From: an uncultured Ruminococcus sp.
GTDB taxonomy: Bacteria > Bacillota > Clostridia > Oscillospirales > Acutalibacteraceae
Direction of reading: 5' to 3'
Length of the DNA: 49,077 nt
Assembly (NCBI GenBank): GCA_905234535.1
Contig: CAJOII010000028.1
Span: 1 to 49,077, forward strand
Made by a program: the position numbers and the translations under genes. This document shows, piece after piece, positions 17,851 to 40,952 of this stretch. The stretch's first letter is position 1. Each line of letters starts with the position of its first letter. The notes under the pieces are model-generated. The model ran no database searches, was not told the DNA's origin, and worked only from the letters and a program-made list of their open reading frames with translations.

Positions 17851-18209
17851 TCAACACTTTTCGAGAATTATAGCAGAATTCTGAAAACTTAGCTCCACAC
17901 GGTCGCCGTAGAGCGTGTAGGAGAAGGGAAAATTTTCTTTTGTCTTCTCATCGCAGATGACAAATTCTCCGACAGAGAGGATGCATACCCCGCTGAGGAC
18001 AGAGGATATATCTCCGCTCTTCACAGAGAGGGTCGCGTTGTTCTCTTCTTTGCCCCGCCCTTGAGCGTCGCTTCCCATCGGTTCATCACAAGCTCGTCCG
18101 ACGAGTCTCTGATCACCCGCGCGCACCCGCACAGAAAGAAGCTGATCATCAGCAAAAAAGAAACTGTGAGTATCACCGCCGACTTTAGTAACATCTTGTG
18201 CCTTTTCAT
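17851..18209 (-). pseudogene. Small lipoprotein, frameshifted
   Basis: MKRHKMLLKSAVILTVSFLLMISFFLCGCARVIRDSSDELVMNRWEATLKGGAK continues in another frame as EENNATLSVKSGDISSVLSGVCILSVGEFVICDEKTKENFPFSYTLYGDRVELSFQNSAIILEKC; one missing base near 18049-18056. AGGTGAT SD before ATG at 18209. Confidence 0.7.
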
Positions 18210-18271: not shown

Positions 18272-20033
18272 TCACTCATGATCGTACGGCTTGAGCAGTT
18301 CTTCCTCATAAGTCTTATATTCATCGGTAGAGTCGTGAATCGGATAATCGGGATAATCAGAGAGGTCGATCTCGGGGATCGAGGGTTCTTCGAAGGAGAT
18401 CTCCTTCGTTTTACAGGAATAGACCGATTCTCCTCTTTGATCAAACCCTTCGAAATCGAGCAGGATGCCGGTCTCTTCGTCTACGGTCATCGTAAAGCGC
18501 GCCATCTGATCGATGTAGTTCATTGACCTTTCCCCTACCTCGCCCTCGATCACGAAGCACTTTCTGCCGAGATACTCTGTTCGCTTTGTAACACTCCACA
18601 AGCTCTCGTCGGAGAGATAATTGCGGAAAGATGCTCAGTGCGGCGGCTAAGTCAAGGTTGGTCGGATTTTGCCTTAGAAAATACTGCGGCAATACATCGC
18701 CATCGCCGTTCTCTTCATCACGGTAGGATTTACGCGGGTATTCTACTCTCTCAGACGGCTGCCAGTCACCGATGAAGCCGTCAGGGCAGCTTCGATTCTC
18801 GTCGTCATGGATATAAAAGAGCGAAAGGATCCGTTCATAATCGAGCTCTCTCTCCTCTTCCTTCGACAGAGCGCGGGAGATGTCAATCTCATTCTGACAG
18901 CCCTCGATGAGATCCCCTCTGTTATCCACCTCATAGAGCTTGCCCCCGCAGCTGTAATATTCAAAGATCACCGCGTCATACAGCTCGTCGGCACGAACGC
19001 TCTGATAGGCAGTCCCAGTCTTCATATCGACCATGTAGGAGATCGTCTCGGGAGGCTCGGGATAATCGCCGAGCATAAACATCTTTCGCTCGATCACACC
19101 GCTGACGGTATCGTAATAGTCGACGCTGTTGATCATCTTTGAAAGTAAATGTGTCTTGTTGATCGGATTCTTGACGGTCGTCAGGCTCTTTCCTTCATCT
19201 GAGGTCGCGGCGGCTGCAACGCCCGCGTTATGCTGCGCGCTGTCGGGTGTTGAACGGTAAGCGGCATAGACGCCGACGCCTCCCGCCGCTACCGCAGACA
19301 CGAGCACGACTGACGCCGCTTTAACGAGCACGGGAGTCTTTGAAACGATCCTGCCGACCGAGGGACGCTCGATCGGGGGCGTCGCTTTCAAAAGCGCTGG
19401 TTTCTGCTCAGAATAAATCTCTTTCGCTTTCCTGATAAGAGAATACGACAGACACGACATCAGCGGCACGCCGGAGAGGTTCTGATAACGCTCAAGCTCG
19501 GTCTTCAAGTTCTCGCGCGCGTAGTGAAGCCGCGACTTGACCGTGCCCTCGCTGATATCGAGAATATCCGAAATCTCTTTGACGCTGAGCTCTTCATAGT
19601 AGTACATCATGATCACCTCACGCTGACGAGGCGAGAGCGTCTCCACCGCGCTCGAGACAGCGTCTCTGATCTCCTGTGACTCAACAAAGCTCTCAGGATC
19701 GATCTGCGGATCGTCATCGGGCAAGGTGTCTGTGATCACCTCGCTGATCGTATCCCCCTTAAGGCGTGTGGTACAGTAGTTCGCGGTGATCGCCTTGAGC
19801 CATCCTAAAAACGCCTGAGGATCTCTGAGAGAATGGAGCTTCTCAAAAACTGTCACGAAGATCTCCTGCGATGCGTCCCGCGCCTTTTCTTCGTCGCATA
19901 GCATCGTCAGCGCGTAGTAATAGACATAGGGCGAGGTCATCTCATAAAGCTCAGAAAGCGCGTGCTTGCTGCCTGACTGCGCGCGCCTGACATGACGCGC
20001 AAGCTTCTTTAGGTTGAGTCGATCGTTCTTCAT
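18272..20033 (-). pseudogene. Sigma-70 family (ECF-type) RNA polymerase sigma factor with TM helix and extracytoplasmic C-terminal domain, frameshifted
   Basis: sigma region 2 (CDEEKARDASQEIFVTVFEKLHSLRDPQAFLGWLKAI) and region 4 (LSPRQREVIMMYYYEELSVKEISDILDISEGTVKSRLHYARENLK); TM helix VLVKAASVVLVSAVAAGGVGVYAAY; frame switches near 18627-18629 to NYLSDESLWSVTKRTEYLGRKCFVIEGEV...PYDHE. Removing one base gives 587 codons. Confidence 0.8.
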
Positions 20034-20125
20034 AGTATCATCCTTTCTTGTTTTATAAAAAGGACGGAAAAGTCTCATTTTGGTTCAATGAATTTACAAA
20101 ATGCAGAGAAAAAACTTTACTCACG

Positions 20126-20678: not shown

Positions 20679-20707
20679 TTGACACACGGAGAGGTTTGGG
20701 GTATAAT
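20679..20707 (+). promoter_or_regulatory. Sigma-A promoter of the GH13-DUF1653 gene
   Basis: TTGACA (20679-20684), 17-nt spacer, TATAAT (20702-20707). Confidence 0.85.
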
Positions 20708-20739: not shown

Positions 20740-22392
20740 ATGCACTGGATACACGACACGGTGTTCTACAACATCTATCCCTTGGGATTCTGCGGAGCGC
20801 CGAGAAAAAACGACTTTGTGCTGACATACAGGCTCGATAAGCTCTACGACTTTATCCCCCATTTGAAGAGAATGGGCGTCAATGCGATCGTGTTCAACCC
20901 TGTCTTTGAGAGCACAAGACACGGCTATGATACTATCGACTACTACAAGATCGACTCGCGTTTAGGCGATAACGAGAGCTTTAAGAAGCTCTGCGACACC
21001 TTGCACAAAAACGGCATCCGCGTCCTTTTGGACGGCGTGTTCAATCATGTGGGCAGAGACTTCTTCGCGTTCAAGGATCTTCAGCACAACGCGATGGGCT
21101 CGATCTACACCTCGTGGTTCCACAATGTCCGCTTCGACCGCCGCTCACCTTATGACGATCCCTTCTCATACGAGGGCTGGGCAGGTCACTACGACCTCGT
21201 CAAGCTCAATCTCTCAAATGAGGATGTCGTGGAGCATCTCTTGGGCGCGGTGCGGTTCTGGATCGATGAGTTTGATATCGACGGTCTGCGGTTAGACGCC
21301 GCGAATGTGATGGATGTCAACTTCTTCAAGAGGCTCAAGAACGAATGCAAGTCGAAGAAGTCAGACTTCTGGCTGTACGGAGAGATCGTCGGCGGCGACT
21401 ACAACCGCTGGGCGAATCCCGACACCCTCGACTCTGTCACCAACTACGATATCTACAAGGCGCTCTACTCCTGCCATAATGACAGAAACTACTTTGAGTT
21501 CGCGCATTCTCTGGACAGAGAGTACGGCGACTGGGGGATCTACAAGAACCTTTATCTCTACAACTTCGCCGACAACCACGATGTCACCCGCGTCGCGAGC
21601 ATCATCCGCGACAAGGCGCTCCTGAAAAATGTCTACACGATGCTCTTCACCATGCCCGGCGCGCCTTCGATCTACTACGGCTCGGAGTTCGGCATCGAGG
21701 GAAAGGTACACAACCACTCGGACTATGATGTCCGTCCCGAGCTTGATCTCAACAATATCCCGAACCGCGACGATCAGCTCCTCGAACACATCTGCAAGCT
21801 CTCAAAGATTATGCACACCTTGGAGGCGTTTCAGTTCGGAAAGTACAAGAACGAGAACATCCAGCTCGAGCATCTGTGCTACTCGATGAAGACCGACAGC
21901 CAGTCTGTCTTTGTCCTTCTGAACCAGTCGGACGAGATGCGTCAGATCGGCTTTGACACGCGGTTTGACGGCGTTCTGACAGATGTGCTGAATGACAACA
22001 ACACCTATGAGTGTCACGGGTATATGAACATCAACATCCCCGCAAAAAGCTCGATGATCCTCATATGCAACGACGGCAGCTTCAAGATGAGCTTTGATGA
22101 GATCAATGAGAACGCTCCCCTGATATGCAAGGAGAAACCTGTGGTTCAAGAAGATAATTCTTCAGAAGAATTAATTCCCGAAGAGATCACCCTCGGCAGG
22201 TACCGCCATTTCAAGGGAAATGAGTACGAGGTCATCGGCTTCGCAAAAGACTCCGAAACAACCGAGAAGATGGTAATCTACAAAGCGCTCTACGGCGAGG
22301 GCGACACCTGGGTGCGCCCGTACAAGATGTTTCAGGAGATCGTCGAGCGCGACGGCAAAAGGTTCAGAAGATTTGAGAAAATTGACGGATAA
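20740..22392 (+). CDS. GH13 alpha-amylase-family enzyme with C-terminal DUF1653 domain
   Basis: GH13 motifs VLLDGVFNHVG, DGLRLDAANVMD, YGEIVGG, FADNHDVTR; C-terminus LGRYRHFKGNEYEVIGFAKDSETTEKMVIYKALYGEGDTWVRPYKMFQEIVERDGKRFRRFEKI is DUF1653-like. Confidence 0.9.
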   Translation: MHWIHDTVFYNIYPLGFCGAPRKNDFVLTYRLDKLYDFIPHLKRMGVNAIVFNPVFESTRHGYDTIDYYKIDSRLGDNESFKKLCDTLHKNGIRVLLDGVFNHVGRDFFAFKDLQHNAMGSIYTSWFHNVRFDRRSPYDDPFSYEGWAGHYDLVKLNLSNEDVVEHLLGAVRFWIDEFDIDGLRLDAANVMDVNFFKRLKNECKSKKSDFWLYGEIVGGDYNRWANPDTLDSVTNYDIYKALYSCHNDRNYFEFAHSLDREYGDWGIYKNLYLYNFADNHDVTRVASIIRDKALLKNVYTMLFTMPGAPSIYYGSEFGIEGKVHNHSDYDVRPELDLNNIPNRDDQLLEHICKLSKIMHTLEAFQFGKYKNENIQLEHLCYSMKTDSQSVFVLLNQSDEMRQIGFDTRFDGVLTDVLNDNNTYECHGYMNINIPAKSSMILICNDGSFKMSFDEINENAPLICKEKPVVQEDNSSEELIPEEITLGRYRHFKGNEYEVIGFAKDSETTEKMVIYKALYGEGDTWVRPYKMFQEIVERDGKRFRRFEKIDG

Positions 22393-38053: not shown

Positions 38054-40952
38054 TTATTCATCGATGGAGAGAGAATCCATCTTGCGTTTTTTCCGGCTAC
38101 TCTTCGAGCCGGAGAGCTTTGTGAGGATCAGCACGAAGGCAATACCGACGACAAACGCGCCGATTGCGATCAGGATCCCGAAGTTCGGCTCCTTCTTCGT
38201 GGACTCGTAGTTTAAGATGATATTCGTCTCAGCGACAGAGAAGACGGGCTCGTCATCGGACACGGACTTGAGCGCGAAGTCCTCAAATCCGAGCTCGTCG
38301 ATCTCGATAGGATCGTCGAGAGTCCCCATATACGACTTGATATCAAAGATCTCGCCGTCGGGGCCCATATAGAGAATATTCGCGCGGCAGTTCAAAGAAG
38401 GATCGATATTCTCGACCGTCTCCGCGATGGTGTACTTGAACTTGTAGTAGACCTCGACGGGATCTTTCTTGAATTTGCCGGCGCCGTTTTTCGGAAGATT
38501 CTCAAGATCCAGGGAGAATCCCTCGATCTTCGGGATATACGGCGTCGTATAAGGCTGATCGACGCGGTTGGTGATCTCTAACGAATTGCAGAGCTCTGTG
38601 CCGTTCTCATCGACAAAGTGGAAGATCACCGAAGAGAAGTCTCCCTCATACGCTTCGACCTCGATCTTCTTGTATGAACAGTTCTCGGAAAACTTGCCCT
38701 TCTTGTCCGATTTTTCGGAGAGGTCGTTGTAGGTGAAAAGCAGGGACTGGGGAATCTCTACGGTGTAGCTCTCCCCTGAATCACCCGTCAGCTTCTGCTC
38801 GAATACAACGCTCTTTGATGCGGTATCGACATACTGCACATAGACGGTCGACTGCTTCTCTTCCTTTTCAGAGAGCGATTCAAACGCTTCTTTGTTCACG
38901 AAGACAGCCGCAGAGGTAGGCGCTACGGTCACAGAGCTCGAAGCCTCCGAGAGAGGACTCAGCCCCGCGGAATCTTTGTCGCATAGCTGCACCCAGTCGC
39001 CTTCGGGCAGTTTAACGGCAGAGGATTCCTCTGTGCTGCCGTTGAAAATCATCACCGCTTTATCGTTATTATCGTTCGACTCCAAGAGATAAGCGATCGT
39101 CTCTTTGCCGATATCGTCTCTGATATGCGTGGTGGTGATGTGATCGCCGGTCGCGTCGCGGAAGATGGAGAACGCTTCCCTGATCTTCAACAGCCCTTTA
39201 TAGTATTCGACAAGCGAGGTGTACTTGCACAGGTTTCTCCAGTCGATCGCGTTGATCTCAACAGAAGACTTGTAGGAGTTCTCGTCGCCCTCTTTGGTTC
39301 TGCCCATCTCTTCGCCCGCGAGGAAAAACGGCATTCCGCGGGAGGTGAGCACGATCGCGGCAGAGAGCTTATTCATCGCGACCAAGTCCTCGCGCCTTTG
39401 AGAATATTTCTTATCTCCGTAGACAGAGGCGGTGAGCTTGTCATACAGGGTGAGGTTGTCGTGACAGGAGGCGTAGTTGACGCTCTGGTTCGGCACTCTC
39501 GCCCACGAGGGTTTATCAATGCTCTCTCTGACGCCCGCCTTGGATGAGCCCTGCTGGACGAAGCCCTTCTCCTTCGCGTTGAAGTTAGACCCCTTGATCG
39601 CGTCGCGAGCGGTATCGTTGAACGCGGCGACACGCTTGTAGATCGAGCTCATATTCTTCTGATTCGCGAGCTTGATATCCGACGCGGCGGCGGTCTCCAT
39701 ATTCCACGCTTCGCCGTACATCAGGATGTTCTTGCCGCCCTTCAAGCTGTCCAGAGAATCGCGGATCGCGTTGACGGTATCGACATCCATCAGACCCATC
39801 AGATCAAAGCGGAAGCCGTCGATATGGTATTCCTGTGCCCAGTAGGTGACGGATTTGACGATATAGTCGCGCATCATACTGCGCTCAGTGGCGATATCGT
39901 TGCCGCAGCCGGAGCCGTTTGAAAAACTGCCGTCTTCATTCAAACGGTAGAAGTAGTTAGGTACAATACGGTTGAAGAAGCTGTCCTCGCCGTAATAGGT
40001 GTGGTTGTACACCACATCCATCACGACACCGATGCCCGCGTTGTGGAGCGCCTGTATCATTTCTTTGCACTCTTTGATGCGGACTCTGCCATCATATGGG
40101 TTCGAGGAGTAGGAGCCCTCGGGGACATTGTAGTTCTTCGGATCGTAGCCCCAGTTATACTGATCGTCGAGCTTCTTTGTCTCGTCGATGGAGGCGAAAT
40201 CATAGAACGGGTTGAGCTGCACATAGCTGACCCCCAGCTCTTTTAAGTAATCGACGCAGGTGGCGACTTCGCCCTTGGAGTAGAGCGTGGTGCCCTCTTC
40301 GGTAAATGCCAAAAATTTGCCGCGGTTATCTTCGCTGACGCCGCAGGTATCCGACGCGGAGAAGTCTCTGACAGAGACCTCCCATACGGTCGCCTGAGAG
40401 AGCGAACTGACCCGCGCGAAGGTATCGTCCGCCCAGCCCTCGGGATCAGTCTCTTTCAGATCGATGATCATACCGCGGTCGCCGTTGACGCCGACCGCTT
40501 TCGCGTAGGGATCGACCACCTCGTGGGACTCGTTCCCTATCTTCACAAGATAGGTGTAATAGAAGTTCTTGTAGTCGCCGTCTAACGAGAGGCTCCATCA
40601 TCGAGGCGGAAGTGAGCATCTGGGCGCCGGTCTCCTGATCGGAGCCGGTCTTGTAGATATTCACCTTGACGGATGAGGCGACGGGAGACCACAGCTTGAA
40701 GGCGGTCTTCTTCTTAGAATACACCGCGCCGAGCTCTTTGGTATAGGCGAGCTTCTCGAGCTTATTGATATAGCCCTGATAGCCGTAGGTTTCGACGGTA
40801 AACGGAGGTTCCGTCGGTTTCTCGGTAGGCTTGACCGTCTCTGCCTCGGTGGGCGCGGTCGCGTCAGCCGCGAACACGGATGTTGATAAAGACGACATGA
40901 TCATCACCAGTAAAATAATAAAGGAAATCGTTCTTCTGAAAGTCAATGTCAT
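38054..40952 (-). pseudogene. Second secreted, C-terminally membrane-anchored pullulanase (GH13), frame-disrupted near the N-terminus
   Basis: Signal peptide (MTLTFRRTISFIILLVMIMSSLSTSVFAADATAPT) in ORF 40446-40952, catalytic part in ORF 38054-40546 (GIGVVMDVVYNHTYY, FRFDLMGLMD, YGEAWNM, YASCHDNLTLYD); C-terminal TM + basic tail. Alignment to the 34856 paralogue indicates missing bases near 40586-40595. Confidence 0.85.

Follow-up and report, generated by a model that had tools for sequence, protein, structure and literature searches.

A putative membrane-anchored ECF-type sigma factor with a fused LolA/RseB-like exterior domain in Ruminococcus

Introduction

Signalling through extracytoplasmic function (ECF) sigma factors normally needs at least two proteins. 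Fusions of ECF sigma and anti-sigma parts have been described, among them IutY, ECF48, ECF52, ECF53 and ECF115 (PMC8999054). IutY of Pseudomonas putida, which belongs to ECF243, is cut by Prc, which trims the protein, and by RseP (PMC5411451). In ECF48, ECF52 and ECF53 an extension with transmembrane (TM) helices acts as a fused anti-sigma factor, and it is thought that these proteins are activated by proteolysis (PMC8999054, PMC5826349).

In this study, a gene from an uncultured Ruminococcus sp. is described that lies in a 49,077-nucleotide stretch of DNA, the whole of which is referred to below as the window. A sigma factor, a TM helix and an exterior domain are joined in one chain, as in fusions of the IutY/ECF52 type, with the chain being unbroken in the relatives only. 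We will examine the domains of this protein, the break in its reading frame, its relatives, the fold of the exterior domain, the predicted promoter and how the sigma factor might be released from the membrane.

Layout of the gene and its domains

The gene occupies the minus strand from 20033 to 18272 and encodes an ECF-type sigma factor followed by a linker, a membrane helix and the exterior domain (Table 1). The sigma part scores 104.6 bits against the TIGR02937 sigma70-ECF model (cut-off 42.9), and sigma2 and sigma4, both well above the Pfam cut-offs, are its sole promoter-binding domains, which is the composition of an ECF sigma factor. Within the linker, the alignment of the nine fused proteins contains a conserved helix with the pattern S/A-Y-S/T/A-L, and a helix at residues 197-217 is predicted in a low-confidence AlphaFold2 model. 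The TM helix has a Kyte-Doolittle mean of 2.09 over 19 residues and is the only region of the chain above 1.6; in the eight relatives the most hydrophobic stretch falls at the matching place with means of 1.57-1.97. The exterior domain comprises about 330 residues. A profile of this domain, built with the window's own sequence among its members, matched both halves as adjoining segments: the frame 0 half covers profile positions 1-201 and the frame 1 half positions 205-302. Pfam, hydropathy and the unbroken relatives therefore bear out the original prediction of one chain of about 586 residues with sigma regions 2 and 4, a TM helix and an exterior domain.

Table 1. Positions in the window of the features of the fusion gene, its reading-frame break and its predicted promoter
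Feature	Position	Strand	Basis
Whole sigma-TM-exterior fusion gene, read through the break, 586 aa	18272..20033	-	
Sigma region 2, residues 29-92	19758..19949	-	Pfam PF04542 (Sigma70_r2), E 8.6e-9
Sigma region 4, residues 124-176	19506..19664	-	Pfam PF08281 (Sigma70_r4_2), E 5.5e-18
Cytoplasmic linker, residues 184-231, ~50 residues	19341..19484	-	Alignment of 9 fused proteins
Single Ala/Gly-rich TM helix, residues 233-257	19263..19337	-	Kyte-Doolittle
N-terminal two thirds of the LolA/RseB-like exterior domain, frame 0	18621..19259	-	Profile match, AlphaFold2 + Foldseek
Exterior domain, C-terminal third including stop, shifted frame	18272..18620	-	Profile match; contains the best-modelled part
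Reading-frame break; the unbroken relatives have ~14 nt more here	18620..18623	-	
Predicted ECF-type autoregulatory promoter, TGAACC-N15-CGTCC	20062..20087	-	Motif upstream of 9/9 fused genes

Fused relatives and selection

A profile search found the exterior domain in 19 of 161 genomes of the same genus. Among 399 genomes sampled across the phylum, a strong match was obtained only in the window's own genome and weak matches in two others. The domain is joined to a sigma factor and a TM helix in nine genomes, the window's included, and the other eight fused copies are each in one frame (L051, with 583 aa, L105, L106, which ends at the end of its contig, and L109-L113). In four pairs of close relatives, dN/dS was 0.05-0.31 across sigma part, linker, TM helix and exterior alike (0.09-0.24 for the sigma part), which argues that purifying selection acts on the entire chain as a single coding sequence. 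With eight unbroken relatives, and with every segment compared under purifying selection, the fusion is, as judged from these sequences, real and not a product of chance, and the relatives support the placement of sigma factor and exterior domain in one polypeptide.

Reading-frame break in the window copy

Frame 0 opens with the ATG at 20033, reaches a stop at 18441 and carries exterior sequence up to about residue 470. Beyond this point the conserved exterior sequence (...TVDEETGILLDFEGFDQRG...) moves to the next frame, in an ORF at 18601-18272. The two sides of the break align with the same relatives. These have six residues between the conserved FPQ and LSDE, as in L107 (RQNPTNVHYASTVSLFPQ-EMAFGF-LSDENLWDITDKTEFLNRKC), whereas in the window only four nucleotides separate RQNPTNLDLAAALSIFPQ, read in frame 0, from LSDESLWSVTKRTEYLGRKC, read in frame 1; about 14 nt are therefore apparently missing. 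A one-base slip was rejected as the cause because a loss of this size fits the relatives better. The frame correction that had joined the two ORFs holds as to the continuity of the protein across the frames, but not as a simple slip. The window copy is either damaged or misassembled, and a real lesion and an assembly fault both fit. Taken as written in the assembly, it would yield the sigma part, the TM helix and about two thirds of the exterior domain followed by a garbled tail.

Two other frame breaks were observed in the window. The next gene (17851-18209, minus strand) encodes an exported protein (MKRHKMLLKSAV...FFLCGCARV) with a lipobox-like Cys and likewise changes frame, at a G-run near 18053-18056. 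A pullulanase-like gene (38054-40952, minus strand) has two overlapping frames near 40446-40546, which makes it the third frame break in 49 kb. The source genome is a draft assembly of 87 contigs.

It is possible, although doubtful, that the gene is a pseudogene in this genome, in which case the loss would have removed the C-terminal third of the exterior domain from a system that is dying. The break itself and the split in the gene that follows are what would be expected of such decay, but both frames are open and conserved on either side of the break, so that any lesion would be recent, and with this number of contigs and the split pullulanase-like gene an assembly fault is about equally probable. 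Decay in this one genome would leave the unbroken relatives unaffected. A programmed frameshift, by which one product would have the complete exterior domain and a second would not, has the open frames across the break as its sole support and was rejected as scarcely credible, since the relatives need no shift and a translational shift would not restore the conserved residues that are gone at the break.

The exterior domain

Domains with a LolA/RseB fold bind acyl chains or detect envelope proteins that are out of place. The AlphaFold2 model of the exterior domain, which rests on three sequences, has a mean pLDDT of 44.5, with stretches of the C-terminal third at about 70-83. When this model was compared with solved structures by Foldseek, the best match was E. 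coli RseB (2p4b, E 2.4e-7) followed by MucB, LolA and LprG; the match to RseB had a probability of 1.00 and a TM-score of 0.48 by target, for a query model of low confidence. A model of the whole chain gave a largely matching list, the mean pLDDT of the AlphaFold2 models being 44-46. Independently of the model, the Pfam family MucB_RseB matched 10 of 21 relatives weakly at E <1 (best 1.6e-5), LolA_like matched 6 of 21, and the Bacillus protein L050 reached 23.1 bits against the MucB_RseB cut-off of 22.3. The window's own exterior domain had no Pfam match, so its assignment rests on the fold and on the relatives, and searches of PDB sequences with the exterior profile found no true relative. 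The two low-confidence models, in both of which RseB, MucB, LolA and LprG come out best, and the weak but repeated Pfam matches support the earlier guess that this is a LolA/RseB-type domain.

Promoter and predicted targets

Target promoters of ECF sigma factors carry AAC in the -35 box and CGT in the -10 box (PMC8103513). The sequence TGAACC-N15-CGTC upstream of the gene fits these boxes as a sequence prediction, with the form [CT]GTC in the eight relatives. The full pattern, TGAACC-N15/16-[CT]GTC[CT], precedes all nine fused genes (9/9), the upstream regions of different branches looking otherwise unrelated, and it arose in at most 0.075% of mononucleotide shuffles per upstream region. There is one match in the window (shuffle mean 0.17). 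The predicted promoter lies 28 nt before the ATG at 20033 and contains an in-frame alternative ATG at 20078, which makes 20033 the likelier start. This shared motif points to autoregulation, as had been proposed. In a genome-wide search for a regulon, matches outside the gene itself were about as frequent as those of the reversed-pattern control (6 against 4 in the window's own genome, G000), which leaves the fusion gene as the one clear predicted target. The motif also lies just upstream of two fused sigmas with different exteriors (L053 and L056). A perfect sigma-70 promoter, TTGACA-17-TATAAT, was seen at 20679-20707 on the plus strand, right before an amylase-like gene at 20740.

Origin of the fusion

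In a tree of sigma domains, the TM-fused sigmas fall into a single clade (97/96) that excludes both the stand-alone sigmas and those of split systems. Within it the LolA-type fused sigmas form a clade (100/99) together with L052, which has a different exterior, and the window protein is at the base. For the exteriors of the fused proteins a single clade is rejected (AU p 2e-11), with long branches leaving the exact order unsure. The window's exterior groups with the free exported proteins L107 and L108 (38 and 35% identity) and with the split loci L119-L121, and not with the other fused exteriors (18-23% identity). These identities by themselves point to an exchange of exteriors, as do sigma parts that form one clade while the exteriors do not.

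The exterior domain is also found as a separate gene, an arrangement that the original prediction had counted against a fusion. In Bacillus (L049, L050) the sigma gene overlaps the gene of a TM protein that carries the exterior, and at three loci of the genus (L119-L121) the exterior is on a membrane protein beside the sigma gene, with a weak DUF4179 match, below cut-off, in two of these. Separate genes do therefore exist, but their sigmas lie outside the fused clade, so that the split forms show a mobile domain and not a false fusion. Long-frame sigmas outside the genus (L061, L063, L068 and L069) are similar by length and were set aside, as they too fall outside the fused clade. A further form of the domain is a free exported protein, seen in L107, L108, L114-L118 and L122-L124, with a lipobox-like Cys in most but not in L107 and L108.

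Several TM-fused sigmas of the same clade have other exteriors (L054, L055, L057, L059 and L070); several of them contain D-x-x-GD-x-x-PE, and they have the linker motif SG[DE]KFYG in common. L064 and L065 each have two TM-fused sigma genes in tandem, of 483+497 aa and 485+481 aa. We tentatively suggest that the genus may swap exterior sensors on a sigma-TM chassis, giving self-regulated, one-component membrane sigmas that have no recognisable anti-sigma domain. If this is true, a sensor of lipids or lipoproteins would, in the LolA/RseB version, be coupled directly to a sigma factor.

Silencing and release of the sigma factor

Class I anti-sigma domains consist of four helices, three of which are bundled on sigma4 while the fourth lies on sigma2, and often have a zinc motif (PMC7406223). 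No such domain was found in the linker, where there is one main predicted helix and neither a zinc motif nor a Pfam match; at about 50 residues it is too short for the four-helix domain. No partner anti-sigma gene is adjacent to the fused genes, and gene neighbourhoods are not conserved between branches.

The protein is probably a one-polypeptide ECF sigma/anti-sigma system that is released by membrane proteolysis, which is taken as the most likely means of release by analogy with IutY. Tethering to the membrane, together with the conserved linker helix, would prevent the sigma part from reaching RNA polymerase, while the exterior beta-fold would sense a ligand or condition outside the membrane. 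The exterior may then be trimmed, after which an RseP-type site-2 protease would cut the Ala/Gly-rich helix, and the freed sigma factor would transcribe its own gene, and perhaps a few others, from TGAACC-N15/16-[CT]GTC.

A full-length RseP-type protease (in a frame of 450-495 aa) is common in the genus, being present in 34 of 40 genomes sampled. None was found in the window's own genome assembly (G000), which has only two short M50 proteins. The gene dxr, which lies directly upstream of the RseP-type protease gene in 6 of 6 relatives checked, is absent from this assembly as well, so the missing protease is likely to reflect an assembly gap. A search of the same genome for a PrsW-type protease found none.

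Alternatively, the sigma factor could be active while anchored, with the exterior altering its conformation or clustering and the tethered sigma recruiting polymerase to DNA near the membrane without proteolysis. ECF41, ECF42 and CorE are controlled by C-terminal extensions in the absence of proteolysis (PMC8999054), and a linker of this length that lacks a class I anti-sigma domain would be compatible with such control. We consider this unlikely, as the Ala/Gly-rich TM helix and the conserved linker fit a protease substrate, and the known TM-fused sigmas are activated by proteolysis or are thought to be (PMC8999054). It is very improbable that the exterior mainly handles lipids or lipoproteins with an incidental or inactive sigma part: the free exported versions of the domain would suit such a role, but the sigma part is under purifying selection and the gene is preceded by a conserved ECF-type promoter.

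Comparison with known systems

A clade of membrane-crossing sigmas whose exteriors can be exchanged and whose autoregulatory promoter is conserved would be a compact system in which to study how a tethered sigma is silenced when there is no recognisable anti-sigma domain, and it would place an RseB-type envelope sensor outside the sigma-E pathway of Gram-negatives. In the literature searched, mostly non-subscription papers, no report was found of a sigma factor that carries an exterior of the LolA/RseB type.

Like the window protein, IutY combines a cytosolic ECF sigma and a regulatory domain on the exterior in a single membrane-crossing chain, and acts as sigma and anti-sigma in one (PMC5411451). 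IutY differs in that it is part of a cell-surface signalling pathway for iron that includes an outer-membrane receptor (PMC5411451), whereas the window protein has a LolA/RseB-like exterior and no receptor gene was seen nearby. ECF52 (SCO4117), ECF48 and ECF53 of Actinobacteria and ECF115 of Bacillus likewise have a C-terminal extension (PMC8999054, PMC5826349). In ECF52 there is a zinc-finger domain, and the exterior binds carbohydrate (PMC8999054, PMC5826349), in contrast to the window protein, which has no zinc motif and a LolA/RseB-like exterior.

The Bacillus pairs L049 and L050 and the pairs L119-L121 of the genus combine the same exterior domain with an ECF sigma, but as two genes and with sigma lineages outside the fused clade. 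In Gram-negatives, RseA/RseB with sigma-E and MucA/MucB with AlgU also use an outer-side domain of the LolA/RseB fold in the control of an ECF sigma factor. Those systems consist of three separate proteins, and RseB joins the anti-sigma factor as a free partner, whereas in the window protein the sigma chain itself includes the fold. The fusion layout therefore has precedents in IutY and ECF52, and the new element, as far as the literature searched shows, is the LolA/RseB-type exterior on a sigma factor.
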